A DNA stretch of 34,785 bases from positions 1-34,785 of IMG/VR virus record IMGVR_UViG_3300034281_000009; one strand, written 5' to 3'. Below the pieces are notes generated by a model. The model was not told the DNA's origin. It worked only from the letters and a program-made list of their open reading frames with translations, and ran no database searches. The position numbers were made by a program, and so were the translations under genes. The DNA is from a virus. This document shows, in pieces, positions 17,255 to 32,073 of the stretch. Position 1 is the first letter of the stretch. Every line of letters begins with the position of its first letter.

Positions 17255-17593
17255 ATGGCTGGAATATATAACGTGGAGGTAGAGCAAGGAACAACCTTTT
17301 ATATAAAGTTAACTTGGAAAGATTCGCTTGGAGTTGTGGTTAATTTGAGTGGATATACAGCTCAATGGCAGATTAGAGTAGGAAGTATATTGTTAAATTT
17401 ATTATCTACAGGTACAAATCCAGCAATAATTATTACTCCAGCATCGGGAGTTATTGAGCTTAATCTTACACCAACTCAAACCATGACATTTACTAGGAGT
17501 GGAAATTATGATCTGAATTTAACTGGTCCATCTGGGATTGTCACTAGATTATTAGAAGGTAGCATAACAAGCTCATTGGAGGTGACATCATAA
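17255..17593 (+). CDS. Small Ig-like baseplate protein
   Basis: 112-aa beta-sandwich protein: VEQGTTFYIKLTWKDSLGVV, then VNLSGYTAQWQIRV, then ASGVIELNLTPTQTMTF. This pattern is common in short proteins encoded next to phage fibre genes and in the N-terminal domains of BppU-type baseplate proteins. AAAGGAAGTG precedes ATG 17255, and the last base of its stop is the first base of the collagen-like gene. It may act as a docking piece for that fibre, an inference from context. Confidence 0.55.
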   Translation: MAGIYNVEVEQGTTFYIKLTWKDSLGVVVNLSGYTAQWQIRVGSILLNLLSTGTNPAIIITPASGVIELNLTPTQTMTFTRSGNYDLNLTGPSGIVTRLLEGSITSSLEVTS

Positions 17594-19467
17594 TGGCAAA
17601 TTATACAGTAGTTGTTGAAACTGTTGCTGGAATTGAAGAATTAATAATTGAGTCTCCAGGTCCACAAGGAGCGCAAGGAATTCCTGGGGTTGCTGGAGTC
17701 GCAGGTGTTGCTGGCATAGATGGCGCAACAGGCGCTACAGGAGCAACCGGACCACAAGGTATTCAAGGAGTTGCTGGCGCAACAGGAGCTACCGGAGCAA
17801 CAGGTCCACAAGGAGAATATGGAGGCCCACAAGGTCCAATTGGTCCAACTGGTCCTCAGGGTAATGTTGGTCCAACTGGTCCTATTGGTCCCGCTGGAAT
17901 TCAAGGTATCCAAGGAGTAAAAGGCGACAAGGGAGATATAGGAAATACTGGAGCAACTGGGCTTCAAGGTATCCAAGGTATTCAAGGAATAAAAGGTGAT
18001 AATGGAAATGCTGGAATCCAAGGTGAGCAAGGAATACAGGGTGTAAAGGGTGATACAGGACTTCAGGGAATCCAAGGTATCCAAGGAATAAAAGGCGACA
18101 CTGGAATACAGGGAATTCAAGGAGTTGCAGGTCCTACAGGTGCAAAGGGTGATACGGGGAATACAGGCGCCGCTGGAGCTACAGGTGCAAAAGGTGATAC
18201 GGGAAACGCAGGAGCAACAGGTGCTACCGGAGCAACTGGACCTCAAGGTATCCAAGGAGTTGCAGGTGCAACAGGCGCTACAGGAGCAACCGGACCACAA
18301 GGGGCTACAGGTGCAACTGGGACTACAACAAGCATAATTGTAACAGATACAGCTAGTCACTTTGTATCAAGTCCAAAATCAGTGGAGAATGTACTTGCAG
18401 AACTTTTTACGTTTGCCAATGACGGTAAGACAGGAATCGCTGGTGTTGTTGGCTCTCCAAGTACTTCCAGCGAAACTTTTGCTCAATTAGTTACAGATAT
18501 TCAAAGTAGAAAGACAACTTTAGCGGCTAATCTTACAGCTAAAGGTGTAACAACGGTTAATACAGATACTTTATATAATATGGCTGCAGCTGTGGCTTCA
18601 ATAACAGGTGGTGGAGTAACTCCAACAAAAATAAACTTAAATATAACAGCTCCTTACCAAAGGGTAATCACTTTTACAAGTCCAGTATTAGCTACAGATT
18701 TATGCGTTTCGTTGATATACTATACACCTGGAACGCAGAACGTTTCTAAATATACTTGTAATTTTGGTAGTGGGGACTCAAGCGGTTTTAATGTAGGCGC
18801 AAATATTGTTTTCAATGGTGTAATGTATCTCCCAAATAAAACAACAACAGGAAATTTTACTGATATTGGAGTTATAGGAACTGGTGAACTTTGGGAGTCT
18901 CCTAGTTTGGATAATACAATATTCTATACCATAGATAGTTTATCATCTACAACGGGGGCTGTTCCTACATTGACAATAAATGGTACGAATCTTCCAGTTG
19001 TTACTTCGCAAAATAGCAATATAGATTTAACAGGTATTTATCAACTTATGAGTATAACTTTAACAGTGAATAGAACAGGTACGGGTGTAGTTTTAGCAGT
19101 TTTAAGTTTTGATAATGGCACAACTTGGTATGCATGGAATGGATCAGCTTTTATTACTGTTAATATTACAAGTTTATCTGATTTTAAGTCTAAAGGAATG
19201 ACAGCAACAGTAATAAATGCTTTAACTCTGGCGCAGTTAGAAAGCCAAAGAGGCAGTAGTACAACTCTTAGATTTGCTTATTACATCGAAATGGGAGCAC
19301 CAACTGACACAGCAAATATTGATACAATGCAAGTTAATGCATCTTTGCCTGGAACTTACGGGTTAGCTCCAAGCACAAATTATACAGCTACTTTAGCTGG
19401 TGATGGAACAACATTAACTTATAATTTATCTACATCAGGTATTTATGTTATAAATTATATGGGATAG
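17593..19467 (+). CDS. Collagen-like tail fibre protein
   Basis: 624 aa. Residues 1-22 are a short strand (YTVVVETVAGIEELIIE). Residues 23-245 are 74 Gly-X-Y triplets in two blocks (18 and 56), broken once by an extra Gly after GEY (residue 77). Such repeats fold as a trimeric triple helix and act as a rigid fibre shaft. A helical domain (about 262-330, with SVENVLAEL and MAAAVASI) and strand-rich domains follow, the likely tip. Near-identical modules GPQGIQGVAGATGATGATG at about 53-71 and 218-236 show internal duplication. Translation is coupled to the upstream gene. Confidence 0.9.
   Translation: MANYTVVVETVAGIEELIIESPGPQGAQGIPGVAGVAGVAGIDGATGATGATGPQGIQGVAGATGATGATGPQGEYGGPQGPIGPTGPQGNVGPTGPIGPAGIQGIQGVKGDKGDIGNTGATGLQGIQGIQGIKGDNGNAGIQGEQGIQGVKGDTGLQGIQGIQGIKGDTGIQGIQGVAGPTGAKGDTGNTGAAGATGAKGDTGNAGATGATGATGPQGIQGVAGATGATGATGPQGATGATGTTTSIIVTDTASHFVSSPKSVENVLAELFTFANDGKTGIAGVVGSPSTSSETFAQLVTDIQSRKTTLAANLTAKGVTTVNTDTLYNMAAAVASITGGGVTPTKINLNITAPYQRVITFTSPVLATDLCVSLIYYTPGTQNVSKYTCNFGSGDSSGFNVGANIVFNGVMYLPNKTTTGNFTDIGVIGTGELWESPSLDNTIFYTIDSLSSTTGAVPTLTINGTNLPVVTSQNSNIDLTGIYQLMSITLTVNRTGTGVVLAVLSFDNGTTWYAWNGSAFITVNITSLSDFKSKGMTATVINALTLAQLESQRGSSTTLRFAYYIEMGAPTDTANIDTMQVNASLPGTYGLAPSTNYTATLAGDGTTLTYNLSTSGIYVINYMG
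17659..18327 (+). repeat. Gly-X-Y coding repeat tract
   Basis: The DNA encoding the triple-helix shaft is a 9-bp-based repetitive tract. A module at about 17720-17812 recurs at about 18208-18303 with few changes. Tracts of this kind can change length by recombination, so the number of triplets may differ between phage isolates. Confidence 0.85.
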
Positions 19468-19480
19468 GAAGTGAGATAAT

Positions 19481-20188
19481 ATGCCCACAGTAACATGGAA
19501 TCCTTCTGATAAAAGTTATAGAATAACTTTGTCTGGTGGAAATTTAACAACAATATCTAATACAAATTGGGGCTCTGTAAGAGCAACAGCAAGCAAAACC
19601 AGTGGGAAGTTTTATTGGGAAATACTAGTTAACGCAGAATCTGACGGTGGAAACGATATTGGTATTGGCACAAGTTCAGCTAATTTAGAAACTTATATTG
19701 AAATAAGTACCACCTATTCTGCCGGAAATGGTGCATTAGACCATGTTTATAATACAGGCGATTTGATTGGAGTGGTCTGGGATTTAGCTAATAAAACACT
19801 TGATTTTTATCAAAATAATGTATTCCTTGTTAGAAGAACTTATACTTTCTCGGGTAGTATTTTTGCGATGGTAAGTGTATATAATTCCTCAAATTCCATG
19901 ACTACAAATTTTGGTGCAACTGCTTTTGTATATGCTATTCCAGCTGGATGCACTTCATACGATGAAAGCCAAGGATTAATCTTAAAATATTTAATATTAG
20001 ATGGAACAAATTTGAGGTCAATAACAGCAGGTAATTTAGTAACAAGGGCATCTACTGGAGATAGTGGAGCAACCCAAGAAACAGCTTTTCTAACTTATGG
20101 GATGGCTGATTTAACAACTTGGACAAATAGCTTATTAAGTCAAGTTGTAACACCACCAGCAAAAGTAGCACTTTATAAAAAATCTTAA
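19481..20188 (+). CDS. SPRY-like domain tail protein
   Basis: 235 aa. Residues about 5-145 read like a B30.2/SPRY lectin-like domain: WGSVRATASKTSGKFYWEIL, then IGIGTSSANLETYI, then GDLIGVVWDLANKTLDFYQN and FAMVSVYNSS. SPRY domains bind proteins or ligands in eukaryotes and appear now and then in phage fibres, where they probably contact the host surface. The C-terminal part (about 150-235) ends in a short segment common to tail-tip proteins. It follows the collagen-like gene by 13 bases with GGAAGTGAG as ribosome site. Confidence 0.7.
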   Translation: MPTVTWNPSDKSYRITLSGGNLTTISNTNWGSVRATASKTSGKFYWEILVNAESDGGNDIGIGTSSANLETYIEISTTYSAGNGALDHVYNTGDLIGVVWDLANKTLDFYQNNVFLVRRTYTFSGSIFAMVSVYNSSNSMTTNFGATAFVYAIPAGCTSYDESQGLILKYLILDGTNLRSITAGNLVTRASTGDSGATQETAFLTYGMADLTTWTNSLLSQVVTPPAKVALYKKS

Positions 20189-20219
20189 TCTATGAGATAT
20201 TTAAGGAGGACGAATATTG

Positions 20220-20456
20220 ATGGATTTTAAAATAAGATTTAAGAACCCAATATTTTGGATTACCTTTATAGGTTTATTTTTATCAAGTACAAGGATAAAT
20301 CCAATAACATTAACAAGCTGGATATTACTTAAAGATGCTCTATTATCTGTGTTAAGTAACCCATATCTCATTGGATGTTTTGTTATAGCTGCAATAGGTC
20401 AATTTAATGATCCAACAACTAAGGGACTATCAGATAAATCAGAGGATATAAAATAA
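20220..20456 (+). CDS. Holin (phi LC3 family)
   Basis: 78-aa membrane protein that would make the lesions needed for lysis. It begins with a short charged segment (MDFKIRFKN), has two hydrophobic stretches (PIFWITFIGLFL and YLIGCFVIAAIG), and ends with the family hallmark DPTTKGLSDS-like sequence (NDPTTKGLSDKSEDI). AAGGAGGA (20203-20210) serves ATG 20220, or TTG 20217 one codon earlier. It is followed by a strong terminator, and no amidase or other endolysin gene lies beside it, which is unusual. Confidence 0.9.
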   Translation: MDFKIRFKNPIFWITFIGLFLSSTRINPITLTSWILLKDALLSVLSNPYLIGCFVIAAIGQFNDPTTKGLSDKSEDIK

Positions 20457-20459
20457 TTT

Positions 20460-20503
20460 AAGGACCTGAGGTTAGAGGAATCTAGCTTCAGGTCTTTTTT
20501 TAT
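20460..20503 (+). terminator. Strong terminator ending the late operon
   Basis: GGACCTGAGG pairs with CTTCAGGTCT (with G-U pairs) around a loop of about 15 bases, followed by seven T. It closes the long rightward structural-lysis operon right after the holin and insulates the following cassettes. Confidence 0.85.
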
Positions 20504-20550
20504 TGTCAAAAATTACTATAAATATATCTTAAAAATCTTTATAAATACTG

Positions 20551-20579
20551 TTGACATCCATCTAGTTAGATGATATAAT
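20551..20579 (+). promoter_or_regulatory. Consensus promoter with embedded palindromic operator
   Basis: TTGACA (20551-20556) and TATAAT (20574-20579) are both perfect, with the optimal 17-base spacer. The spacer contains the perfect palindrome CATCTAGTTAGATG (20559-20572). A repressor bound there would block RNA polymerase directly. The likely controller is one of the phage DNA-binding proteins; which one cannot be told. Confidence 0.85.
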
Positions 20580-20591
20580 AGTATTATAGTA

Positions 20592-20633
20592 AAGGTAAAG
20601 CCACTCACCGCAAGGGAGTTAAGGTAAAAGGAG
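20592..20633 (+). ncRNA. Possible structured 5' leader with GNRA hairpin
   Basis: Downstream of the promoter, ACTC-A-CC-GCAA-GG-GAGT (20603-20619) folds as a hairpin with one bulged A and a GNRA tetraloop. It is flanked by AAGGTAAAG (20592-20600) and AAGGTAAAAG (20621-20630), the second running into the ribosome site AAAAGGAG. A control role on translation is possible; it is not a known element that I recognise. Confidence 0.4.
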
Positions 20634-20641
20634 TTTTGAAA

Positions 20642-20923: not shown

Positions 20924-21100
20924 ATGGAATTAAGTGATATCACAATACTAAAAGAGGTATCGGAAACTTATGGAATACCTCTAAAGACTCTACAAGATCG
21001 GCTTAAAAGACTAGACGAAAATGTTGATTACAAAAAGTTTGGGAAGAGAAACACTACCATATTAAGCCCAACTGGAGTAGAAAAAATAATAAAAAAATAA
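20924..21100 (+). CDS. Small HTH DNA-binding protein
   Basis: 58-aa gene with a well-placed GGAG ribosome site. Residues about 5-27 (ITILKEVSETYGIPLKTLQD) form a helix-turn-helix of the kind seen in excisionases and small phage regulators, followed by a basic wing (DENVDYKKFGKRNTTILSPT). The shape is right for an Xis or Cro-like factor. It shares the operator-bearing promoter with the upstream hypothetical and could act on it; this is inferred. Confidence 0.75.
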   Translation: MELSDITILKEVSETYGIPLKTLQDRLKRLDENVDYKKFGKRNTTILSPTGVEKIIKK

Positions 21101-21538: not shown

Positions 21539-22207
21539 ATGGAAAAGAAGAATATGAATCTAAAAAACTGTAAAGCTTGTAATGAGCCAATAGCGAAGGG
21601 TGTTAAGAAATGTGTTCATTGTGGTAAAGACCAAAGGAACTTTTTCATGAAGCACAAAATAATAACAGGATTATCAGTAATTATTGTTTTAGGTGTTATA
21701 GGTTCATCAGGGAATAAGTCTACCACTCCAACCATAGTAACACCAGCCACTGCAACCACTGCAACCTCTGGAGCAAAAGTTTCATCCGTATCAACAACTC
21801 CAGTAGTTGAAGTACAAAAGACATTCAAAATAGGTGATGTAGTAGCTCTAGGGAATATTAATTTGACTGTCAGCAAAATAGTTAGAAGCAATGGTAGTGA
21901 ATATGAAAAACCTAAGGCTGGCAATGAGTTTGTTATTATTTATGTTAAAATAAAAAATATAGATAAAGGCACAGTAAGTTATAATCCATTTTATTTTAAA
22001 TTACAAAATAGTAAAGGACAAGTAACAGATACGGCTATTACTATTATAAATACTGATACAGCATTAAGCTCTGGTGATTTAATTACAAATGGAGAAATTG
22101 AAGGCTCAGTTGTCTTTGAAGCACCAAAGGGAGATAAAGGACTTATACTGAGATATGAAGATAATATATTCACTTCTGATTCTAAAATATCTATAAATTT
22201 AAAATAA
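21539..22207 (+). CDS. Zinc-ribbon membrane-anchored DUF4352-like protein
   Basis: 222 aa. Residues 11-29 hold two CxxC pairs (CKACNEP and CVHCGKD), a zinc ribbon. A single hydrophobic segment (KIITGLSVIIVLGVIGSS, about 40-57) should anchor it in the membrane, followed by a Ser/Thr-rich linker. Residues about 95-222 form an Ig-like domain with IGDVVALGNINLTVSKI and NEFVIIYVKIKN, the DUF4352 pattern seen in exported lipoproteins. It has its own promoter and terminator and no link to phage assembly, so it is a likely lysogenic-conversion (moron) gene. Its effect on the host is unknown. Confidence 0.75.
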   Translation: MEKKNMNLKNCKACNEPIAKGVKKCVHCGKDQRNFFMKHKIITGLSVIIVLGVIGSSGNKSTTPTIVTPATATTATSGAKVSSVSTTPVVEVQKTFKIGDVVALGNINLTVSKIVRSNGSEYEKPKAGNEFVIIYVKIKNIDKGTVSYNPFYFKLQNSKGQVTDTAITIINTDTALSSGDLITNGEIEGSVVFEAPKGDKGLILRYEDNIFTSDSKISINLK

Positions 22208-22211
22208 ATAC

Positions 22212-22250
22212 AAAAGCACTCCTAATCATTCAGGAGTGCTTTTATTATTA
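22212..22250. terminator. Terminator, probably bidirectional
   Basis: Perfect 12-bp stem AAAAGCACTCCT (22212-22223) and AGGAGTGCTTTT (22232-22243) with an 8-base loop and T-rich sequence on the plus strand. The A-rich left arm gives a T-run in the other direction too, so it may end both the rightward moron and the leftward repressor operon, which converge here. Confidence 0.9.
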
Positions 22251-22277
22251 TTGAGAATTAATTAATATTTTCCTATG

Positions 22278-22484
22278 TTATAAAATTTCGCCTATATGTG
22301 CCTCTAAAAATTCATCAAGTTTGCTTAATACAACTCTTCTAACTCTTCCTATTTTCAATAATGGGAAGCCTTCTATACGGGTAAGACTTAACGCTTTTGA
22401 ATAGGATACACCAATTATTTCTGCAAACTCTTTTGTGTTACATGTTTTTTTAATTGCATTTTTTCTGTATTCTTCAATATCCAC
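22278..22484 (-). CDS. Excisionase-like HTH protein, tandem copy 1
   Basis: 68 aa, one of three neighbouring paralogs of identical length. A winged HTH of the excisionase/MerR-like kind: KKTCNTKEFAEIIGVSYSKA is the HTH, then FPLLKIGRVRRVVLSKLDEF forms the wing and C-terminal helix. Start is GTG 22484, with GAGAGGAG upstream; that leader is also shared with the middle copy. It is the last gene of the leftward operon, before the convergent terminator. It could be the phage excisionase or a regulator; the triplication leaves the division of labour open. Confidence 0.8.
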   Translation of the reverse strand: MDIEEYRKNAIKKTCNTKEFAEIIGVSYSKALSLTRIEGFPLLKIGRVRRVVLSKLDEFLEAHIGEIL

Positions 22485-22504
22485 TTTAATAAGTCTCCTC
22501 TCTT

Positions 22505-22711
22505 TTAAAGAATATCTCCTATATGTTCTTCTAAAAAATCATCCAGTTTGCTTAATATCGTTCTTCTGTCCCTTCCAATTTTCAACATTGGAAATCCTTC
22601 TATATGTGTTATACGTAAAGCTTTGTCATGTGATACCCCTAATATTTCTGACAACTCTTTAACACTGCATGTTTTTTTCTTTAGCTTATCTCTATACTCT
22701 TGTATATCCAT
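22505..22711 (-). CDS. Excisionase-like HTH protein, tandem copy 2
   Basis: 68-aa paralog with the same layout: KKTCSVKELSEILGVSHDKA (HTH) and FPMLKIGRDRRTILSKLDDF (wing). ATG 22711 is preferred over ATG 22732 because GGAGAGGAG lies between them at a proper distance from 22711 and the resulting length equals that of the other copies. Protein and upstream leader are closest to copy 1, suggesting the more recent duplication. It lies in one operon with copies 1 and 3. Confidence 0.8.
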   Translation of the reverse strand: MDIQEYRDKLKKKTCSVKELSEILGVSHDKALRITHIEGFPMLKIGRDRRTILSKLDDFLEEHIGDIL

Positions 22712-22731
22712 TTTAATAATTCTCCTCTCCA

Positions 22732-22938
22732 TTAAAAAATTTTCCCTATATGCTCCTCCAAAAATTCATCTAGTTTTGATAAAATGACTTTTCGGGATTG
22801 TCCAATTTCCCATAGAGGAAATCCTTGTATATGTGATACTCTTAACGCTTTGGCATAAGATATTCCTAGTATTACCGCCAATTCTTTGATCGTACAAGTT
22901 TTCTTTAGTAATTTCTCTTTGTATTCTGATTCTGTCAT
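22732..22938 (-). CDS. Excisionase-like HTH protein, tandem copy 3
   Basis: 68-aa paralog, the most divergent: KKTCTIKELAVILGISYAKA and FPLWEIGQSRKVILSKLDEF. Start ATG 22938 follows AGGCGGT. It is the first of the three in transcription order, after the XRE repressors. Differences from the others lie mainly in the recognition-helix neighbourhood and wing, as expected if the copies bind different sites. Confidence 0.8.
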   Translation of the reverse strand: MTESEYKEKLLKKTCTIKELAVILGISYAKALRVSHIQGFPLWEIGQSRKVILSKLDEFLEEHIGKIF

Positions 22939-22976
22939 TCAATTACCGCCTATCTATTATTTTATAAGTAAAAATA

Positions 22977-23198
22977 TTATTTTTTAGGGTACGGAGTGGA
23001 TATATCGGTCCTACCAAAAAGATAATCGGTTGAAACATTAAAATAACTAGCAATTTTCATTAATGTATCGTAGCATGGTTCTCTTTTACAATTTTCATAA
23101 CCAGAGATAGCTCTTCCCGAAAGATGTAATACCTTTGATAGCTTTTCTTGAGTTAAATCATTATCCTCTCTTAAAGCTCTTAACCTTTCATTAAACAA
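22977..23198 (-). CDS. XRE-family repressor
   Basis: 73-aa HTH_3 protein. FNERLRALREDNDLTQEKLS begins the domain and HLSGRAISGYENCKREPCYD is the recognition helix and turn; FNVSTDYLFGRTD is the usual end of Cro/CI-type small repressors. TTG 23198 is preferred because AGGAGG lies 9 bases before it and the protein then starts at the family's typical N-terminus; ATG 23219, directly after the upstream stop, is the alternative (80 aa). It follows another XRE gene in one leftward operon, so the two may cooperate or one may be Cro-like. Confidence 0.8.
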   Translation of the reverse strand: MFNERLRALREDNDLTQEKLSKVLHLSGRAISGYENCKREPCYDTLMKIASYFNVSTDYLFGRTDISTPYPKK

Positions 23199-23219
23199 TA
23201 CATAATTCCTCCTATTCAT

Positions 23220-23441
23220 TTAATGGGTATTCCCACCTTTTAATTTTGCCTCTAATAATATCCATGGATCTATCTCTAAAACAGTGCTTATTTTTAATAG
23301 TAAAGGTAACTTAATAGAATATTTTTGATTTTCTAGCTCACTTAGATAACTTCTACTTATCCCTGTTCTTTCAGCTAATTGTTTTTGAGTTAGCTTTTTA
23401 ATTTGTCTAAACTCTTTTATCTTCAGTCTATAATTATCCAT
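23220..23441 (-). CDS. XRE-family repressor with leaderless start
   Basis: 73-aa HTH_3 protein: KEFRQIKKLTQKQLAERTGI, then SRSYLSELENQKYSIKLPLL, ending with EIDPWILLEAKLKGG. The domain is complete and fits a phage immunity repressor. ATG 23441 has no ribosome site, and TATAAT ends 6 bases upstream, so transcription should begin at or near the A of ATG (leaderless mRNA), as for lambda cI from PRM. It heads the leftward five-gene operon and diverges from a ribbon-helix-helix gene across an operator-like palindrome. Confidence 0.85.
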   Translation of the reverse strand: MDNYRLKIKEFRQIKKLTQKQLAERTGISRSYLSELENQKYSIKLPLLLKISTVLEIDPWILLEAKLKGGNTH

Positions 23442-23447
23442 AAGTAT

Positions 23448-23477
23448 ATTATATATACATAATTATGCAAATGTCAC
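23448..23477 (-). promoter_or_regulatory. Leftward leaderless promoter of the XRE operon
   Basis: On the minus strand GTGACA (23477-23472, five of six consensus bases), an 18-base spacer and TATAAT (23453-23448). The start codon begins 7 bases after the -10 box, so the predicted transcript starts at the AUG. Confidence 0.75.
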
Positions 23478-23483
23478 TGGAAA

Positions 23484-23505
23484 GTTATGACATGTTATGT
23501 AACAT
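23484..23505. promoter_or_regulatory. Operator-like palindrome between divergent promoters
   Basis: Perfect palindrome ATGTTA-TG-TAACAT (23492-23505), and the half-site GTTATG occurs twice 10 bases apart (23484 and 23494), one helical turn. It lies between the leftward XRE promoter and the rightward promoter, the right place for repressor control of both. Confidence 0.7.
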
Positions 23506-23513
23506 TACGTGTC

Positions 23514-23542
23514 TTGATTGTACCTTATGTTTCTTATATAAT
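23514..23542 (+). promoter_or_regulatory. Rightward promoter for the ribbon-helix-helix gene
   Basis: TTGATT (23514-23519), 17-base spacer, TATAAT (23537-23542), ending 19 bases before ATG 23562. It faces the leaderless XRE promoter across the palindrome. Confidence 0.75.
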
Positions 23543-23561
23543 TCTATATGGGAGTGATACC

Positions 23562-23714
23562 ATGCTTATACATAGGGTTAGATTAGGTAGTTCAATAGAT
23601 AAAAAATTAGATGAAGAGTTGAGAAATTTATCAAAAAAATCAAGAATAGCAATTTCAAAACTTTTAGATGAAGCAATAGATGATTTATTAAATAAACATT
23701 CTGCTAAAAAGTAG
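23562..23714 (+). CDS. Ribbon-helix-helix DNA-binding protein
   Basis: 50-aa CopG/Arc-type protein: HRVRLGSSIDKKLDEEL is the strand and first helix, and SRIAISKLLDEAIDDLLN the second helix. Start ATG 23562 follows GGAGTGAT. It is transcribed away from the XRE operon from its own promoter, so it is in the place where a Cro-type antagonist is usually found, although the fold differs. The gene's last codons form the left arm of a terminator hairpin. Confidence 0.8.
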   Translation: MLIHRVRLGSSIDKKLDEELRNLSKKSRIAISKLLDEAIDDLLNKHSAKK

Positions 23715-23731
23715 AATGTTTTGTTATTTTT
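23695..23731 (+). terminator. Terminator overlapping the end of the RHH gene
   Basis: AACATTCT (23695-23702) pairs with AGAATGTT (23713-23720), followed by TTGTTATTTTTT. The left arm lies in the final codons of the ribbon-helix-helix gene, making it a one-gene transcript. Confidence 0.8.
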
Positions 23732-24015
23732 TGAATGAATTTAGTGCGGAATTGTCGAAAATTTCATGGCACTTAGATATATTTAAGTATATAATTTATT
23801 ATAGGAAGAATATTAAAAATATTGAATTTATTTAATTAAATAACAAATAAAGTAATTAAATTTGCATATAATATAATATAAGCTATATCTAAACATAAAT
23901 AATCCAGCTTAATAAAAAGATTAAAAAAGAGGGATTATTAAATATTTTAACGGGTTAATTCTACCCGAAATAATATAGAAAAAATACTTTACTAAAGCTT
24001 TTAAAAGATTAGGAG
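23732..24015. other. AT-rich intergenic region
   Basis: No ORF with a start and ribosome site was found. The stretch contains overlapping TATAAT hexamers (23867-23877) without a convincing -35 partner, and a small hairpin CGGGT/ACCCG (23951-23967) with no T-run. It separates the RHH gene from a small gene next to attP. Confidence 0.5.
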
Positions 24016-24024
24016 ATGAAAAAC

Positions 24025-24216
24025 GTGATAGACTACGAAAGATCTGTTATCAATCAGATGAATAAACCAATAGAAAATGAAGAATTGAAAATACTATGGG
24101 AGAATAAATCTTTTGCTTATAATTCTATATTTAAGTATTTAAAAAACTATGGACTAAAAGAAAAAGAATTAACTGAAGTTGCGGTATTAATAACAGGATA
24201 TCTCGAGTTAATTTAA
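24025..24216 (+). CDS. Small hypothetical protein next to attP
   Basis: 63-aa helical protein (IDYERSVINQMNKPIENEEL, then a C-terminal helix) without a recognised motif. GTG 24025 is preferred because AGGAG (24011-24015) is 9 bases before it; ATG 24016 would touch the ribosome site. It lies immediately left of the attachment site. A role in recombination is conceivable from position but not supported by sequence. Confidence 0.6.
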   Translation: MIDYERSVINQMNKPIENEELKILWENKSFAYNSIFKYLKNYGLKEKELTEVAVLITGYLELI

Positions 24217-24221
24217 GGCTT

Positions 24222-24246
24222 AAAAAAGTGCACAAAAAAGTGCACA
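24222..24246. repeat. Arm-type integrase sites, left pair
   Basis: Two direct copies of AAAAAGTGCACA, with GTGCAC at 24228-24233 and 24240-24245, 12 bases apart. Together with the right pair they flank the tRNA-like core, as arm sites bound by the N-terminal domain of a tyrosine integrase do. Confidence 0.75.
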
Positions 24247-24373
24247 AAAGTTTAAATTACATCTAAACTACTTTAATTAAAATTAAATTTGTTGCGTTTA
24301 AGAAATTTTATCAAGTATAATCAAGGGACGTAAAATCAACGGCAAGCTGATTTTTACAAAAGTTTCGAACCAA

Positions 24374-24421
24374 CCGTCTCCAAAACCGTTGGCCTAGGTT
24401 CAAGTCCTAGTACCCCTGCCA
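24374..24421 (+). other. attP: attP core: 3' half of tRNA-Trp(CCA)
   Basis: The sequence matches the 3' half of a bacterial tRNA-Trp: anticodon loop CTCCAAA (24378-24384, anticodon CCA), anticodon 3' stem ACCGT, a T-arm CTAGG-TTCAAGT-CCTAG (24394-24410), acceptor strand TACCCCT, discriminator G and CCA (24419-24421). The 5' half is absent, so it is not a working tRNA. Integration here would rebuild the host tRNA 3' end. The integrase gene is adjacent. The identity breaks within the anticodon stem (C at 24375), which marks the probable left edge of the core. Confidence 0.85.
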
Positions 24422-24432
24422 ATTCTTAAAAT

Positions 24433-24455
24433 AAAAAGTGCACAAAAAGTGCACA
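24433..24455. repeat. Arm-type integrase sites, right pair
   Basis: Two more direct copies of AAAAAGTGCACA, with GTGCAC at 24438-24443 and 24449-24454, 11 bases apart. They lie between the core and the integrase gene. Confidence 0.75.
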
Positions 24456-24507
24456 GATTTAAAAAAACAGAATTTATAAAAGCATTAGAATTAACTAATG
24501 CTTTTTT

Positions 24508-25602
24508 TTATTTGAAAATATTCTTAACTTGTTGATCTAATTCTTTAGTTTCTTCTAACCCTAAATGTTGATATATTTTTTTTAATACCCATATATCATG
24601 ACCAAGTCTACCAGCTGCATATTGATCTGGTACTTTATTTTTATAAAGTAAACTTGCATGATAATGTCTCAGGTCGTGGAATCTTATTTTAGGTAAATTA
24701 TTTTCCTCTTTATTTATTGTTTTTCTATATTTCTTAGTAAAGCTATGAGGATTCTGAGTGAATATTTCATATTGAATATCAACTTCATTTTCTTTTTTAT
24801 CATCACTCTTTTTAGGTTTAGATTGTTTTATAGTTTTCAATAAATCTATTAGGTAATCAGGAACTGCAATAGTTCTAATTCCATTATGGCTTTTAGGATC
24901 TTTAAACTCAAATTTATAACCTTCTTCTTCAAGAGCAAGAGCTTCATCAATTCTTATAGTTCCATCTTTTTCATTTAAGTCATTCCATTTTAATGCGAAT
25001 ATTTCACCTCTTCTAAGCCCACACCACCCAGCTAGTAAAATAATTGCCTCATCTTCAATACCAATTTTTTTGAATGCTAAGTATATTTCATTAAATTCTG
25101 CTTCTGTAGGAATCGTAGGTGTAAATTCTGCATTCTTTGGGGCCTTTATGTCAACACAAGGAGATTTTGTTTTAAGAGCATCATAGAACATCTTGGAGAG
25201 TGTAAAAAAATGTTTTCTTACTGTGGTGGATGAAAGTTTCCCTTTTAGTTTATCAGCAATATATTGTTTTATATGCATATCGGTTATTTGGTTTACTTTC
25301 ATGGTGCCAAAAGCTGGTTTAAAGTGAAGTTTTATATACATCTTATAGCCTTTAACTGTAGTTGGAGCAAGAAGCGGCTTATTTATTTCCAACCACTTGT
25401 CCATATAATCTGACATCTTCATCATGCTAAGGTTATTTAATGATTTGCTTTCAACTTGACTTTCTAACTCTCTAGCAGCTTTTTTGCATTCTTTTAAACT
25501 ATTCCTGGTAGCAAATTTTCTTAACATCGTTCCATTTGAATCTCTTCCTACGTATACAGTTGCTTTATAAGTTCCATTATCATTCTTTTTAATTGTGGCC
25601 AT
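24508..25602 (-). CDS. int: Tyrosine recombinase integrase
   Basis: 364-aa site-specific recombinase that inserts and excises the phage at the tRNA-Trp site. Residues 1 to about 50 are the AP2-like arm-binding domain (IKKNDNGTYKATVYVGRDSN), about 62-145 the SAM-like core-binding domain, and about 165-364 the catalytic domain. Visible active residues are Arg197 (GLRRGEI), Lys237, His309 and Arg312 (HDLRHYHA), His335 (LGHDIW) and Tyr344 (IYQHL). All are present, so it should be active. It is transcribed with the S24 repressor (stop and start separated by 1 base), with GGAGGTGA in the repressor's last codons as its ribosome site. Confidence 0.97.
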   Translation of the reverse strand: MATIKKNDNGTYKATVYVGRDSNGTMLRKFATRNSLKECKKAARELESQVESKSLNNLSMMKMSDYMDKWLEINKPLLAPTTVKGYKMYIKLHFKPAFGTMKVNQITDMHIKQYIADKLKGKLSSTTVRKHFFTLSKMFYDALKTKSPCVDIKAPKNAEFTPTIPTEAEFNEIYLAFKKIGIEDEAIILLAGWCGLRRGEIFALKWNDLNEKDGTIRIDEALALEEEGYKFEFKDPKSHNGIRTIAVPDYLIDLLKTIKQSKPKKSDDKKENEVDIQYEIFTQNPHSFTKKYRKTINKEENNLPKIRFHDLRHYHASLLYKNKVPDQYAAGRLGHDIWVLKKIYQHLGLEETKELDQQVKNIFK

Positions 25603-25603
25603 A

Positions 25604-26233
25604 TTATTTCACCTCCGATTTAAAACATACAGCCTTACCTAAAATTTTGATTTCTTTCTTATCTTTTTTTGAAAATATCATATCTTTGTAATTAGGATTT
25701 TCAGGTCTTAATATTATATTTCCTTCGATTTTATATAATCTTTTTAAAGTTGCCATCTCTCCATCTATTTGAATAGCGGCTATTTCTCCATTCTCAACAT
25801 CAGGTTGTTTACGTATATAGATTATATCTCCATCAAATATTCTTGCATTAATCATGCTATCACCCTTCGCCTTTAGACAAAAGTCTAAATCTTCATTGGG
25901 AAGAATATATTCATATCCTTGTATATCTTGTTGTGCAGAAATAGGAACACCGCAAGCAATCACACCAAGTATAGGTATCATTTTATATTTTATTTCGTCA
26001 CCATATTTATCATCAGTAATTCCAACCAAATAATCAGCTTTAACTCCAAAAAAATCAGCGATTGCAGAAACGTCAGTAAACTTTTGAGGTTCTTCTAAAT
26101 TATTTTCCCATTTAGAAATCATAGACTTGCTAATACTTCTGTTGTATTTATCATTAATAACCGTAAGTAGTTCTTCTTGTGTTAAATTCTGTTCTTTTCT
26201 AAGTTCCTTAATTTTATAACCAAATGTTTTCAT
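25604..26233 (-). CDS. S24/LexA-like phage repressor (CI type)
   Basis: 209-aa repressor with an N-terminal XRE HTH (GYKIKELRKEQNLTQEELLT, ISKSMISKWENNLEEPQKF) and a C-terminal self-cleaving domain: cleavage site Cys94-Gly95 in GVIACGVPI, nucleophile Ser126 (KGDSMINARIFDGD), general base Lys164 (MATLKRLY). It can thus respond to DNA damage through RecA-stimulated cleavage. ATG 26233 is chosen because GGAGGT lies just before it, inside the longer reading from 26245. It is divergent from a Cro-like gene across an operator-like site. Confidence 0.93.
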   Translation of the reverse strand: MKTFGYKIKELRKEQNLTQEELLTVINDKYNRSISKSMISKWENNLEEPQKFTDVSAIADFFGVKADYLVGITDDKYGDEIKYKMIPILGVIACGVPISAQQDIQGYEYILPNEDLDFCLKAKGDSMINARIFDGDIIYIRKQPDVENGEIAAIQIDGEMATLKRLYKIEGNIILRPENPNYKDMIFSKKDKKEIKILGKAVCFKSEVK

Positions 26234-26263
26234 TATTACCTCCATCTTTAACTCTATATAAAC

Positions 26264-26292
26264 ATTATATATTTAAAGTTTCGTGAAAGCAA
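26264..26292 (-). promoter_or_regulatory. Leftward promoter of the S24 repressor
   Basis: On the minus strand TTGCTT (26292-26287), a 17-base spacer and TATAAT (26269-26264). The spacer holds TTTCAC-GAAA, a half-operator resembling the TTCG-N4-CGAA sites nearby, which fits autoregulation. Confidence 0.75.
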
Positions 26293-26322
26293 TATATTTT
26301 TTAAAAAACTTAATGTATTTTA

Positions 26323-26351
26323 TTTACAATTAAACATTGTTGTGATACGAT
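26323..26351 (+). promoter_or_regulatory. Rightward early promoter
   Basis: TTTACA (26323-26328), 17-base spacer, TACGAT (26346-26351, four of six consensus bases). It is followed within 17 bases by TTCG-AACT-CGAA (26368-26379). This placement fits a repressible lytic promoter leading into the Cro-like gene and onward to the early genes. Confidence 0.6.
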
Positions 26352-26367
26352 ATATTCATAAATAAGT

Positions 26368-26379
26368 TTCGAACTCGAA
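26368..26379. promoter_or_regulatory. Operator-like site TTCG-N4-CGAA
   Basis: TTCG-AACT-CGAA lies between the rightward promoter and the Cro-like start codon. The same TTCG-N4-CGAA form recurs at 26634-26645 and 26661-26672. Confidence 0.65.
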
Positions 26380-26394
26380 GAAAGGAGTATTAAA

Positions 26395-26640
26395 ATGGCT
26401 GGAAAAACTAAGAATGGTGTTAGAAGAATGCATACCCCTTACACAAAATTTAAAGCTCTTATGCAAGAAAAAAATATTAAGCAAAAGGAGCTGGCTTTAT
26501 TACTTAACAAAACAATAACTGCAGTAAACCAAAATCTAAATGGTACAGGTGGAGATTTTAGCATGAGGGATGTTCGCAAAATATGTTTGGAATATGATAT
26601 TAGCTCAGATACGTTTTTTGTTAAACAAAAAGTTTCGTAA
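26395..26640 (+). CDS. Cro-like XRE-family regulator
   Basis: 81-aa HTH protein: TKFKALMQEKNIKQKELALL, then NKTITAVNQNLNGTGGDFSM, and RDVRKICLEYDISSDTFF. It is divergent from the S24 repressor, as Cro is from CI. AAAGGAG precedes ATG 26395. Its stop codon lies inside an operator-like inverted repeat. It is the first gene of the rightward early transcript. Confidence 0.85.
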   Translation: MAGKTKNGVRRMHTPYTKFKALMQEKNIKQKELALLLNKTITAVNQNLNGTGGDFSMRDVRKICLEYDISSDTFFVKQKVS

Positions 26641-26673
26641 TCGAAAAAGGTTTAGAATACTTCGATTACGAAA
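26633..26673. promoter_or_regulatory. Paired 13-bp inverted repeat of operator type
   Basis: TTTCGTAATCGAA (26633-26645) and its exact complement TTCGATTACGAAA (26661-26673) are 15 bases apart. Each arm is itself a TTCG-N4-CGAA site. There is no T-run after the right arm, so this is not a typical terminator; it may be a double operator, or an mRNA hairpin between the Cro-like and antirepressor genes. Confidence 0.7.
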
Positions 26674-26708
26674 TCGAAGAAATCTAGAGAAAGAAGGGAC
26701 AAGCTTGT

Positions 26709-27476
26709 ATGAACAAGTTAAAGATTTTTAAGAATGAACAATTTGGAGAAATAAGAACAATTATTGAGGATGAGCAACTTTGGTTTGTAGCTCAAGATAT
26801 TTCAAAAATATTAGATTATTCAGAAACTTCAGTAATGTTAAGAAGATTAGATATTGATGAAACTATGAAGATTGTACCCACCGAAATAGTCGGTACAAAT
26901 TCTATGGCGAGAGAAGTAACCGTCATAAATGAAAGCGGTTTATATAATGCAGTTTTAGGGAGTAAGAAACCAGAAGCTAGAAAATTTAAGAAATGGGTAA
27001 CAAGTGAAGTACTTCCAGATATCAGAAAACATGGAGCTTATATGACAGATGATTCAATTGAAAAAGCATTGACGGATCCTGATTTCTTAATTCAACTGGC
27101 TACTAATTTAAAAGAAGAAAAGTTAAAAAGATTGGATGCTGAAAAGAGAATTGAAATTGATAGACCAAAAGTAATTTTTGCAGATGCTTTGGAAATCTCA
27201 GATAATACCATCCTAGTAGGAGAACTCGCAAAGCTTCTAAAACAAAATGGAATTGATATTGGACAAAACAGATTATTTGAAAAACTTAGGGAAATGAATT
27301 ATTTAGGAACCAAAGGAGAATATAAAAATCTTCCAACTCAAAAGGCAATGGATTTAAAATTGTTTGAGATTAAGAAAAGAACAATAAATAACCCAGATGG
27401 AAGTGTAAGAGTTACTACTACAACAAAAGTTACGGGCAAAGGGCAAATATACTTTGTAAATAAATTCAAGATATGA
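26709..27476 (+). CDS. BRO/KilAC antirepressor
   Basis: 255 aa with two domains: N-terminal BRO-N (residues 1 to about 115: GEIRTIIEDEQLWFVAQDIS, VINESGLYNAVLGSKKPEAR, WVTSEVLPDIRKHG) and C-terminal KilAC/ANT (about 150-255: RPKVIFADALEISDNTILVG, then ELAKLLKQNGIDIGQNRLFE, and GKGQIYFVNKF). This combination is typical of phage antirepressors that disarm the lysogeny repressor. AAGAAGGGAC precedes ATG 26709. The gene follows a paired operator, so its expression is probably controlled by the repressor or Cro. Confidence 0.93.
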   Translation: MNKLKIFKNEQFGEIRTIIEDEQLWFVAQDISKILDYSETSVMLRRLDIDETMKIVPTEIVGTNSMAREVTVINESGLYNAVLGSKKPEARKFKKWVTSEVLPDIRKHGAYMTDDSIEKALTDPDFLIQLATNLKEEKLKRLDAEKRIEIDRPKVIFADALEISDNTILVGELAKLLKQNGIDIGQNRLFEKLREMNYLGTKGEYKNLPTQKAMDLKLFEIKKRTINNPDGSVRVTTTTKVTGKGQIYFVNKFKI

Positions 27477-28444: not shown

Positions 28445-30111
28445 AAATTAAAAGAATAGAGTTTAAACACTTTTTAGGAATTGAGGAGTTTGAATTAGAG
28501 CCTGGGAAGATAAATATCATTAGTGGTCCAAAAGGAAGCAGTAAGAGCTCTGTCATAGAAGGAATTGAGAAAGTCTTTACTAACAAAAATCGAAGAACAG
28601 AGATTATCAAGCATGGAGCAGATGAAGCTATTTTATTTATTGAAACAGATGATGGTTTAGAAATTGGTCGCAAAATTAGAAATGATAAAGCTGATTATTT
28701 AAAAATCAGAAAAGGTGATGAAGGTGTTCCAAATACGGAAGCTTATCTAAGAAATTTCATTAATGGAGATGTTTTCAGGCCTGTAGATTGGGTGAACATG
28801 AAATCAGATCTACAGACAAAAAGTATTCTTAATATGCTTCAAATAGATTGGTCCCAGGAAAAAATTGAAAAATGGTTTGGGGAGATTCCTTCAAACATTG
28901 AATATGACCAACATATCTTGATGGTATTGAAGGCTATAGAGGTTAAATATTTTAAAGACAGAGAAGAACTCAATAGACAAATTAAGGAGCTTAGAACTCA
29001 AATACAGATTATTAAGAAGGATATGCCTGAGAATTATGACGGAGAAACTTGGAGAGATTTAAAAGTTCAAGACCTTTATAGGATAATATCCGATGCTCAA
29101 AAGACTAATGGATATATTAAACAAGCTCAATCCCTTCAAGAAAATATTCAGAATCAAATTGATACTATTACTGCAAATATTGAGAGTGAAGCAACTAGGG
29201 TACAGATGAAATATAAGGACCAAAGACAAGATATTAAAGATATTATTGACTCATCTAAAACCAAAATTGAAAAGACAAAAAATTTATTAAGTGAAGCTGA
29301 TTCTAATTTAAAAAATAGTCTAAGTCTTAATGAAACAGTATATCATCGTCTATTACGTGAACTTGAGAAAGAATTTGAGAAGAAGAAACAAGATTTAAAA
29401 CTTGTAAGTATGGCTGAAGATGAAAAAATGCTATCCAATACAACAAAGTTTAAAGAGGACCAAAAGGATACAATCCAGCTCCAAGAAACTAAGATAGCAA
29501 CTAAACAGCAGGAATTTATTTACCTAGATGAAATTGAAAATCAAGCACTTGAAGCAGTGAAGGTTAAAAAGGCTGCTGAAATTGAGAAGGTTAATGCAAG
29601 AGTTGGTAAGGCTGCTGAATATTTAAAAATAACTGAGTCTATTGAAATTGAATCTCTTCAAAAACAAGCAGATGAAGTTGCAACTATGCAGAGCTATTTA
29701 AGGCTCTGGGATAAGCTTGTCGATATTAGAGATAATCAATTGCCTGAGAGAGAGAGAAATGCAGAAGGGTTATCCTCAAAAATAGAAACTGCAAGGACAT
29801 TGCCTACTGAACTTTTAAAAACTGCTCAGATGCCAGTGGAAGGTATTTCGGTGGATGAGAAGGGATCAATCAGAATCAATAAAACTTTGATAGAAGGACT
29901 CTCTGATGGTGAAAAACTAACTTTAGCCATGAAGATAGCAAAGGCTCAGGCAGGGGAATTACGCGTTGTGTGTATCGACAAGTGGGAATCTTTGAATAAA
30001 AAGGCACAAGATAAACTTTTAAAAGAAATGGGAAATGATGAATTCCAATACTTTATAACTCAAGTTTCCGATACGGATAGTGATGGATTAGAGATAAAGA
30101 AAAATGTATGA
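28441..30111 (+). CDS. SMC/RecF-like AAA ATPase
   Basis: 556 aa. It opens with MKIKRIEFKHFLGIEEFEL, the N-terminus of Rad50/SMC/RecF ATPases, then Walker A GPKGSSKSS (29-37). About residues 180-430 are long charged helices, likely coiled coil. The C-terminal half returns to the head with the ABC signature LSDGEKLTLAMK and a Walker B segment VVCIDKWESL that lacks the usual acidic residue right after Asp. It heads the recombination set with a probable annealing protein and a nuclease. ATG 28441 overlaps the AbrB-like stop. Confidence 0.85.
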   Translation: MKIKRIEFKHFLGIEEFELEPGKINIISGPKGSSKSSVIEGIEKVFTNKNRRTEIIKHGADEAILFIETDDGLEIGRKIRNDKADYLKIRKGDEGVPNTEAYLRNFINGDVFRPVDWVNMKSDLQTKSILNMLQIDWSQEKIEKWFGEIPSNIEYDQHILMVLKAIEVKYFKDREELNRQIKELRTQIQIIKKDMPENYDGETWRDLKVQDLYRIISDAQKTNGYIKQAQSLQENIQNQIDTITANIESEATRVQMKYKDQRQDIKDIIDSSKTKIEKTKNLLSEADSNLKNSLSLNETVYHRLLRELEKEFEKKKQDLKLVSMAEDEKMLSNTTKFKEDQKDTIQLQETKIATKQQEFIYLDEIENQALEAVKVKKAAEIEKVNARVGKAAEYLKITESIEIESLQKQADEVATMQSYLRLWDKLVDIRDNQLPERERNAEGLSSKIETARTLPTELLKTAQMPVEGISVDEKGSIRINKTLIEGLSDGEKLTLAMKIAKAQAGELRVVCIDKWESLNKKAQDKLLKEMGNDEFQYFITQVSDTDSDGLEIKKNV

Positions 30112-30637
30112 ATCAGAATTTAAGAAATGTGAGATATGTGAGAGTATTAAAAAAGTGTTTTATTTCAGAAAGAAAATATATCTATGTGAGAGACACTATG
30201 CACAAATGAGTAGAAAAGAAAAATGTAATATTAGATGTTCTATGAAAGTTAAAAATTTAGAAAATGAAATATGGGAAGATATTATCGGATATGAAGAGTT
30301 ATATCTAATTAGTAACCTTGGGCGTGTGAAAAGTTTACCAAAATTCTTTCAAGGTGAAAAGATATTGAAACCAAGACTAGATAGATATGGCTATCCTACT
30401 ATTGGGCTAATAAAAAATAAAATTAAAAAAACATATAAAATCCATAGGTTAGTTACGAAAGCTTTTATTGAAAACCCTTTAAATTATCCATCTATTAATC
30501 ATAAAGATGAAAATAAAGAAAATAACAGTACGGACAATCTTGAATGGTGCACAGTTGGTTATAACAACAAATACGGGAATAGAATCAAACTTGCAGCTGA
30601 CACAAATAGGGGTAGAAAAAAATTAGGGGGTAAATAG
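30104..30637 (+). CDS. HNH homing endonuclease (NUMOD4-type)
   Basis: 177 aa. Residues about 55-75 are NUMOD4-like (NEIWEDIIGYEELYLISNLG), then RVKSLPKF, and about 115-150 the HNH motif (KTYKIHRLVTKAFIENP, SINHKDENKENNSTDNLEWC). The N-terminal 40 residues add cysteines (CEICES, CERHY) of possible zinc-binding type. This is a free-standing homing endonuclease, a selfish gene between the ATPase and the annealing protein. It starts inside the ATPase 3' end (8-base overlap), so it uses the same transcript. Confidence 0.85.
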   Translation: MYESEFKKCEICESIKKVFYFRKKIYLCERHYAQMSRKEKCNIRCSMKVKNLENEIWEDIIGYEELYLISNLGRVKSLPKFFQGEKILKPRLDRYGYPTIGLIKNKIKKTYKIHRLVTKAFIENPLNYPSINHKDENKENNSTDNLEWCTVGYNNKYGNRIKLAADTNRGRKKLGGK

Positions 30638-30640
30638 TTA

Positions 30641-31567
30641 ATGGAAATTAATAATCAAATGGCAAGAAGAGAAGATAACACCAATGTTACAGCACATATA
30701 GTTGAAGGTAGACAGGTTACAGAAGTCCAAGGAATGGTATGTATGGCCAAGCAATATCCAAGAGACCAATATGAGGCCTTTAATCGGATCATGAAATCCT
30801 GTGAAAGAACAGCATTAGCTGAGAATGCAATTTATCAATATCCTAAAGGTGGAACAAAAGTAACGGGTCCTTCAATAAGACTTGCAGAAGCTTTGGCACA
30901 AAATTGGGGGAATATTGATTTTGGGATTATGGAGCTGGAGCAAAAGAATGGTGAAAGCTCAGTAATGGCTTATGCATGGGATTTAGAAACAAATACAAGG
31001 CAAACTAAGTTATTTCAAGTCCCACATGTTAGATATTCTAGGGCAAAAGGAAATGAAAAGCTGACGGATCCACGAGACATTTATGAAATAGTTGCTAATA
31101 ATGGTGCCAGAAGATTAAGGGCATGTATTCTTGGAGTAATACCAGGTGATGTTATAGATGCAGCTGTCGATAAGTGCCAAGAAACTTTAAAGAATGGTTA
31201 TAAGGAACCACTGGAAGATAGAATAAAAAATATGATTGCTAAGTTTGATAAGGAATTTAGTGTAAAGAAAGAAATGTTAGAAAAATTAATGGGATACAAC
31301 ATTAATGCCTTTACTGAAATGGATGTTGTAAAGCTCATAGGCATATTTAAATCACTTAGGGATGGAATGGCAAAGCGTGAGGATTACTTTGAAATTAAGG
31401 CTGAAAAGAAAGTCACTGAACCTGCATCAACAAAGCTAGATGGTAAGTTCAAAAAAGATGAAAAGAAAGATGGTAAGAAGGATGAAAAAGTTAAGGAAGA
31501 TTCAGAATCAAAAATAAATGAAGAGGATATTCAAAAATTACCTTGGGAAGGTGGCGAAGAGGAGTAA
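30641..31567 (+). CDS. Recombination protein, probable single-strand annealing type
   Basis: 308 aa. The central part (AKQYPRDQYEAFNRIMKSCE, then GTKVTGPSIRLAEALAQNWG, then RLRACILGVIPGDVID) belongs to a phage family encoded between SMC-like ATPases and PD-(D/E)XK nucleases and likely acting like RecT/Rad52 annealing proteins. The C-terminus (about 250-300) is a Lys/Asp-rich flexible tail ending LPWEGGEEE, similar to single-strand-binding partners' acidic tails. The family name cannot be given with certainty. Ribosome site AGGGGG precedes ATG 30641. Confidence 0.6.
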   Translation: MEINNQMARREDNTNVTAHIVEGRQVTEVQGMVCMAKQYPRDQYEAFNRIMKSCERTALAENAIYQYPKGGTKVTGPSIRLAEALAQNWGNIDFGIMELEQKNGESSVMAYAWDLETNTRQTKLFQVPHVRYSRAKGNEKLTDPRDIYEIVANNGARRLRACILGVIPGDVIDAAVDKCQETLKNGYKEPLEDRIKNMIAKFDKEFSVKKEMLEKLMGYNINAFTEMDVVKLIGIFKSLRDGMAKREDYFEIKAEKKVTEPASTKLDGKFKKDEKKDGKKDEKVKEDSESKINEEDIQKLPWEGGEEE

Positions 31568-32073
31568 TGCCTATTGCAATGGATTTAAATGGGCGTAAGT
31601 TTGGAAGGCTAAATGTTATAAAAAAGGCAGAAAAGCAAAATAAGCAAGGTGTTCTTTGGCTATGCAGATGTGATTGTGGAAATGAAAAGATTTTAGATAC
31701 TTATCATTTAAATTCAGGAAAAACAAAGTCATGTGGATGTCTACAACGTGAAGCTGTTAGCTCATTACTAAAGACTCATGGTATGAGAAACACGAGGTTA
31801 AATAGTATTTGGCGAGGTATAAAGACTAGATGCACTAATAATAAGCGTATTGACTATAAATTTTATGGTGGAAGAGGTATTAAATTTTGTACTAGATGGA
31901 TTAGATTTGAAGAGTTTTATAAAGATATGGGCAAAAGCTACGAGGAGCACGTAAGGCAATATGGAGAAAAGAATACAACCATAGATAGAATCAATGTAAA
32001 TGGTAATTATGAACCTTCAAATTGTGGGTGGGCAACAAGAAAAGAACAAGTAAAAAATAGGAGGAGTCAATGA
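31567..32073 (+). CDS. HNH-type homing endonuclease with CDCG motif
   Basis: 168 aa. It begins MDLNGRKFGRLNVIKKAE (residues 5-22) and has LCRCDCGNEKILDTYHLNSG, then KTKSCGCLQREA, a zinc-binding segment, and a C-terminal region TTIDRINVNGNYEPSNCGWA that closes the domain. This is a common phage homing endonuclease group. The upstream gene's TAA overlaps its ATG (TAATG); ATG 31579 is an alternative start. It sits between the annealing protein and the nuclease, so both neighbours are probably linked by an insertion. Confidence 0.8.
   Translation: MPIAMDLNGRKFGRLNVIKKAEKQNKQGVLWLCRCDCGNEKILDTYHLNSGKTKSCGCLQREAVSSLLKTHGMRNTRLNSIWRGIKTRCTNNKRIDYKFYGGRGIKFCTRWIRFEEFYKDMGKSYEEHVRQYGEKNTTIDRINVNGNYEPSNCGWATRKEQVKNRRSQ

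Follow-up and report, generated by a model that had tools for sequence, protein, structure and literature searches.

The triplicated genes and their operon

The window, by which we mean the whole stretch of DNA analysed (34,785 bases), is a virus record of a temperate siphophage of Clostridium type. Terminase genes occupy 0-2 kb and tail genes extend to 20 kb, followed by the holin gene at 20217-20456, a cargo region and the integrase gene. Beyond the integrase come the gene of a CI-type, S24-domain repressor, then cro, an antirepressor gene and the replication genes. Some features were observed in passing: the product of 17593-19467 (plus strand) resembles a tail fibre and contains long Gly-X-Y repeats of collagen type; a holin is present in 19481-20640 and no endolysin gene was noticed nearby; and a NUMOD4/HNH homing-endonuclease-like gene (NUMOD4 E 1e-14) sits among the recombination genes, the first and second HNH-type ORFs lying at 30104-30637 and 31543-32073 (plus strand), of which the second is HNH-like by eye only. 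The genes at issue are those for three small Xis-like proteins, XisA, XisB and XisC, and their operon contains or adjoins the following features.

22732-22938, minus strand: XisA, first Xis-like wHTH paralog, 68 aa, ATG start; the most diverged, with the wing WEIGQSRK
22505-22711, minus strand: XisB, second Xis-like wHTH paralog, 68 aa, ATG start; 76% identical to the Clostridium paraputrificum protein of locus L004
22278-22484, minus strand: XisC, third Xis-like wHTH paralog, 68 aa, GTG start; R33S in the recognition helix
22273-22953, minus strand: three tandem 227-bp units of leader plus gene (DNA repeat finder)
22977-23219, minus strand: XRE2, HTH_3 regulator of 80 aa in the same operon (HTH_3 E 6e-13)
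23220-23441, minus strand: XRE1, HTH_3 regulator of 73 aa, first gene of the operon (HTH_3 E 1e-14)
23448-23477, minus strand: promoter-like site GTGACA-18-TATAAT of XRE1-XRE2-XisABC, the best promoter-like match in 22000-26800
23489-23513, no strand: candidate operator, a 25-bp palindrome with pairing at 10 of 12 (shuffle P 0.06) that separates the two divergent promoters
23514-23542, plus strand: promoter-like site TTGATT-17-TATAAT of the RHH gene, one of the next best matches
23562-23714, plus strand: divergent ribbon-helix-helix (RHH) protein of 50 aa (RHH_3 E 8.5e-15)
22210-22245, minus strand: strong intrinsic terminator ending the Xis operon, terminator-like on both strands

Open reading frames, BLASTP and the repeat finder agree on three intact 68-aa paralogs, head to tail on the minus strand at these positions, as the first-pass annotation had described them. 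All frames are open, each comprising 68 aa plus a stop, and the proteins are 57-68% identical, BLASTP giving 63% (A-B), 58% (A-C) and 68% (B-C) at E 1e-29 to 1e-34, with 34 of the 68 columns invariant. In the DNA a unit of 227 nt occurs three times with a spacing of exactly 227 and 227, and an identity of only 75% and 65% to the reference copy shows that the units did not arise by duplication in the assembly. The ribosome-site leader that had been ascribed to two of the copies is indeed common to B and C (85% identity over the 26 nt upstream), whereas the leader of A is only 38-42% identical, which is to be expected if the unit consists of leader plus gene and A stands behind another upstream gene. 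The dN/dS ratios of 0.18-0.23 (NG86, with synonymous sites near saturation) imply that all three have been kept as proteins by purifying selection, and the near saturation furthermore implies that the duplication is old and that the copies have not been homogenised. A clade of the window copies excluding the relatives L004 and L040 obtained a support of 49/77, for which 68 columns are too few to settle the matter, and R49 together with a non-isoleucine at position 51, common to all three proteins, point to a single origin.

As read from the sequence, the operon is XRE1-XRE2-XisA-XisB-XisC with its own promoter-like site, a divergent RHH gene and a terminator, and the XRE1 transcript is probably leaderless, its start codon lying a few bases past the -10 element. 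The RHH reading frame opens at 23487 and its ATG behind GGGAG is that at 23562. Promoter-like sites number 28 across the region against 29.3 in shuffles, and the two promoters are therefore candidates by position and score and not by count, while six terminator-like sites were found against 1.3 expected. The matches of the XRE genes in PADLOC are those of generic HTH proteins. The notion of a single lysogeny operon is wrong: the Xis genes are cotranscribed, by their layout, with two XRE genes, whereas cI and int form another unit beyond attP, and the XRE-Xis operon is a second, separate regulatory module. The proposal of operators at 20559, 23492 and 26368 did not survive: there is no motif common to these places, the palindrome at 23489-23513 is unique within the window, and the 20.5-kb and cI-cro regions have no informative 9-mer in common with it, so that a common operator was rejected.

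Two further genes of the cargo region deserve mention. The gene at 21539-22207 (plus strand), convergent with the Xis operon and with a terminator in common, encodes a zinc-ribbon and DUF4352 protein (E 2.5e-26) that is probably membrane-anchored cargo, and 20924-21100 (plus strand) encodes a 58-aa protein with a weak excisionase match (phrog_2655, E 8e-4, 20 bits). The latter gene belongs to a short operon of cargo genes, which is preceded by a TTGACA-TATAAT promoter and has a CATCTAGTTAGATG palindrome close to 20560.

Integrase, attP and tRNA-Trp

The attachment site and the genes on its far side from the Xis operon were mapped as follows.

24223-24246, no strand: two AAAAAGTGCACA repeats of the P arm, candidate Int arm sites (repeat finder)
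24310-24339, plus strand: ATCAAG twice and AATCAA, weak candidate Xis sites in attP (motif search)
24374-24421, no strand: attP core, the 3' part of tRNA-Trp (compare the tRNA-Trp of L042)
24433-24455, no strand: two AAAAAGTGCACA repeats of the P' arm, candidate Int arm sites (repeat finder)
24508-25602, minus strand: tyrosine integrase (phrog_1, E 2.6e-55)
25604-26245, minus strand: CI-type repressor with S24 peptidase domain (domain/profile match)
26395-26640, plus strand: cro-like gene, with no Xis-like gene behind it

The attP region (24223-24455) thus carries four perfect repeats, two on each side of the tRNA-Trp stretch. At the relative L042 (genome G084), which is a contig end with the int side and the tRNA-Trp only, a 75%-identical integrase adjoins an intact tRNA-Trp that includes this stretch, the repeats there being analogous, and integration of the phage into tRNA-Trp is therefore most likely. 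Since attP lies between int and the XRE-Xis operon, int-cI and XRE-Xis would come to lie at opposite ends of the prophage in a lysogen. The candidate Xis sites are found between the P arm and the core, with ATCAAG at 24310 and 24320, 10 bp apart, and AATCAA at 24334; a pair of the ATCAAG type is present in 5% of comparable windows. We also observed AAGTTTCGAAC both beside the attP core (24359-24371) and in the cI-cro region (26363-26374), and it is a candidate for a shared protein site.

Family, predicted fold and relatives

The excisionase-like nature of the three proteins is well supported by family profile matches, by linkage of the family to integrases and by the top fold matches. Taken singly, XisA, XisB and XisC score 19.6-23.2 bits with TIGR01764 'excise' (NCBIfam), below the curated cut-off of 28.8, and 22.2-25.3 bits with PF12728 HTH_17 over positions 3-50 of 51, below the gathering cut-off of 27. 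TIGR01764 matches 20 of the 21 members of the family assembled here (E up to 0.01; best 1.2e-8), and phrog_66 'excisionase and transcriptional regulator' matches 15 of them. A model of XisB built by AF2 from eight sequences (pLDDT 85.9, replacing a 6-sequence model at pLDDT 57) has the order a1-b1-a2-a3-b2-b3-a4, with helix 3-13, b1 14-15, helices 17-24 and 28-35, a wing of strands 42-45 and 48-52 and helix 53-63, the N-terminal helix being predicted with good confidence. Foldseek against 350,542 PDB chains ranked RdfS (8DGL; 67 columns, probability 0.97) first and second, Pukovnik Xis (4J2N; rmsd 1.6, probability 1.00) third and P2 Cox (4LHF) 16, with a BldC-DNA complex also among the matches; the E-values are weak (0.08-0.3), which is not unusual at 68 residues, at probabilities of 0.91-1.00. 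In a viral model library, models named Cox or excisionase were likewise among the best matches. XisA, XisB and XisC are thus predicted to be small winged-helix proteins with an extra N-terminal helix as in RdfS, which agrees with the small single-domain wHTH fold typical of RDFs. Sequence searches of the PDB with the Xis-like proteins did not recover RdfS, and the likeness is therefore one of fold and does not imply kinship. RdfS is reported to carry an N-terminal helix (residues 3-12) that other solved wHTH proteins lack and on which its oligomerisation and excision depend (PMC11963761), and the helix predicted for the window proteins occupies the corresponding position. The net charge (K+R minus D+E) is 0, +2 and +2 in XisA, XisB and XisC and -1 to +3 in single-copy relatives, and values of 0 to +2 would be low for an RDF and may count against this reading.

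That phages normally carry one such gene, as the first-pass annotation had it, is borne out by the relatives. Matches were found in 18 of 292 genomes near Clostridium paraputrificum, one apiece, at 37 places in 34 genomes among 226 of the order and at 32 places in 29 genomes among 391 of the class, and none of the roughly 65 places in about 59 clostridial genomes has tandem Xis-like copies, counting at an E cut-off of 1e-8 or 1e-9 with limited scored candidates per genome, so that a strongly diverged neighbour could escape. The closest pair of places is 1.5 kb apart (G414:C43) and one of the two has a stop. All 18 loci examined in detail have a single gene. By local search, a diverged HTH_17 gene of 53 aa was observed directly behind the Xis-like gene of one relative (L025:3758-3919, minus strand, E 2e-5), and a second HTH_17 gene lies near that of another (L038, E 1e-4). 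No match to the family was obtained in INPHARED phages or PLSDB plasmids (tblastn, XisB query, E 0.01). Likewise, A1, XRE2 and the integrase, used alone as queries against IMG/VR, gave no match, and A3, A4 and A5 recovered no more than a few loci, all distant, so that these scans yielded no close relative of the phage with the same operon, and a TerL search gave relatives at 45-57% only.

A tyrosine integrase is found within 2.7 kb of the Xis-like gene at 18 of 18 genome loci inspected, and in the phage form of the window the distance to int is 1.6 kb. The usual layout is int-cI divergent from cro-Xis (L004, L005, L024, L026, L029-L031 and others, and likewise the viral contigs L040 and L098), while the Xis-like gene directly precedes int at L035, L036, L037 and L039, and at L033 two XRE genes precede it as they do in the window. 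Unlike in these relatives, no family member is found behind cro in the window, and the Xis genes lie across attP from int, unlike at the 18 other loci, which counts against an RDF function. The main doubt about the RDF reading is that the window integrase is only 26% identical to the integrase type accompanying the single-copy relatives, which makes a cognate Int-Xis pairing here presumptive, and that the 20924-21100 protein has an excisionase match of its own, if a weak one. Profile scores below the cut-offs, fold E-values of about 0.1 and the weakness of the candidate Xis sites in attP likewise speak against it.

A family profile built without the three copies scores B at 118 bits, C at 106 and A at 93. 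In a comparison with 11 single-copy relatives, lone departures from conserved columns are few in B, at 21 and 66, and occur in C at 20, 24, 33, 48 and 52, and in A at 3, 7, 35, 38, 47, 48, 50, 66 and 68; those of A and C include positions of the recognition helix and wing, while helix 4 is nearly unchanged. This pattern fits changed DNA contacts on a preserved framework, in a sample too small for a formal test. B is thus nearest to the single-copy relatives and probably keeps the ancestral specificity; different binding sites for A, B and C are plausible, and mixed filaments of the three are conceivable by analogy.

Possible functions and comparison with known systems

Excisionases are proteins that turn integration into excision. 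Known RDFs bind cooperatively and head to tail, with low specificity, on direct repeats one helical turn apart (PMC7498355). If they behave like lambda Xis, Apl and RdfS, single Xis proteins would bind DNA weakly, align head to tail and bend it; on the P arm of attL and attR such a filament would steer the integrase from integration towards excision out of tRNA-Trp, and filaments formed at promoters would act as repressors or activators. Expression of the set would come under a switch belonging to its operon (XRE1, XRE2 and the divergent RHH protein), apart from the cI switch, and the capacity for excision and/or that switch could hence be induced independently of int and cI. With their altered DNA-reading surfaces, A and C might join B in a mixed filament or carry binding to further sites. 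We favour, with a probability of about 0.55, the joint explanation that XisA, XisB and XisC are tandem duplicates of one excisionase-type (RDF) gene whose products together bind DNA as filaments and thereby promote excision, control the switch of their operon, or both. A division of labour within this set is a more tentative proposal, in which the diversified proteins would, under the second switch, either co-assemble in order on a composite att site or each use separate sites, such as the phage's own attP, its own promoter or the att sites of other elements.

It may also be imagined that the three proteins have no role in excision and are transcription regulators of the Cox/AlpA/BldC kind, acting on the second switch (XRE1/XRE2 versus RHH) or on early genes, the true excisionase being another protein, for instance the product of 20924-21100. 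The divergent promoter region with two XRE genes and one RHH gene, the different type of the integrase, the BldC-DNA complex among the fold matches and the phrog_2655 match all agree with this notion, and regulation alone is imaginable since Apl and RdfS serve both functions. The family however tracks integrases at all 18 loci, the best fold matches are RDFs and the competing excisionase match is weak at 20 bits, and on balance we regard such a purely regulatory role as possible but doubtful. That the copies are functionally equal and that duplication just raises their dosage is unlikely: the head-to-tail tandem units, the near-identical leaders of B and C and the conserved C-terminal helix are in agreement with it, as is the requirement of RDF filaments for many protomers (PMC7498355), but the near saturation of synonymous sites marks the copies as old and not homogenised, and the departures of A and C include positions of the recognition helix and wing.

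A function in trans, in which the operon would be cargo expressed in the lysogen and its products competitor-type RDFs that block the integration of a rival element or force its excision, is in fair agreement with the location of the operon among the cargo genes that separate the holin from attP and with its own promoter-like site and terminator. Related proteins furthermore serve phages with another integrase type, and overexpression of RdfS strips its element from cells (PMC11963761). This is nonetheless quite improbable, as a lysogen may keep the promoter switched off and PADLOC gave no match for XisA, XisB or XisC. Degenerate or misassembled repeats without function, for which nothing speaks save the oddity of triplication, are hardly credible and in the main refuted, misassembly and pseudogenes alike being ruled out by the 25-35% DNA difference between the copies, their open frames and the dN/dS of about 0.2.

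To our knowledge, RDF filaments have so far been studied as homopolymers, with one protein per integrase. With three diverged, conserved paralogs of RDF type in tandem, nature provides a case in which the formation of hetero-oligomeric filaments can be examined, and the trio likewise allows asking whether duplication diversifies RDF specificity and whether a prophage applies RDFs to elements besides itself. Indeed attP, the candidate arm sites and the candidate proteins are all small and mapped, and are thereby directly open to a recombination assay.

The statement that no such case had been described is in agreement with our literature searches among open-licence papers, which gave the RDFs of tripartite ICEs (PMC5882170) and no tandem paralogous xis genes. 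These ICEs, with RdfS, RdfG and RdfM, resemble the window in having three RDFs in one element, but theirs are dispersed with one integrase each, whereas the window has tandem paralogs and one recognised integrase. RdfS of ICEMlSymR7A (8DGL, PMC11963761), the best PDB fold match, is like the window proteins a small wHTH protein in which an N-terminal helix (3-12, against 3-13 in our model) is followed by b1-a2-a3-b2-b3-a4, and it is not encoded beside its integrase and also acts on promoters; it differs by its one copy per element, its longer C-terminal tail and an identity of just 22% over the fold alignment. The wHTH core of Pukovnik Xis (4J2N) superposes on the window model with 1.6 A over 47 columns, but this protein is without the N-terminal helix, present in a single copy and 17% identical. 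The Apl/Cox RDFs of P2-like phages (PMC7498355) are wHTH proteins that also control lysis-lysogeny promoters and assemble cooperatively into filaments where direct repeats are spaced by one helical turn, yet they are encoded by one gene per phage and belong to another sequence family. The Xis-like genes of Clostridium prophages (L004, L005, L024-L034, L098 and L099) are of the same family and 47-76% identical to XisB, but these are single and situated on the cI-cro side of an int of another type, whereas the three of the window lie across attP, behind two XRE genes.
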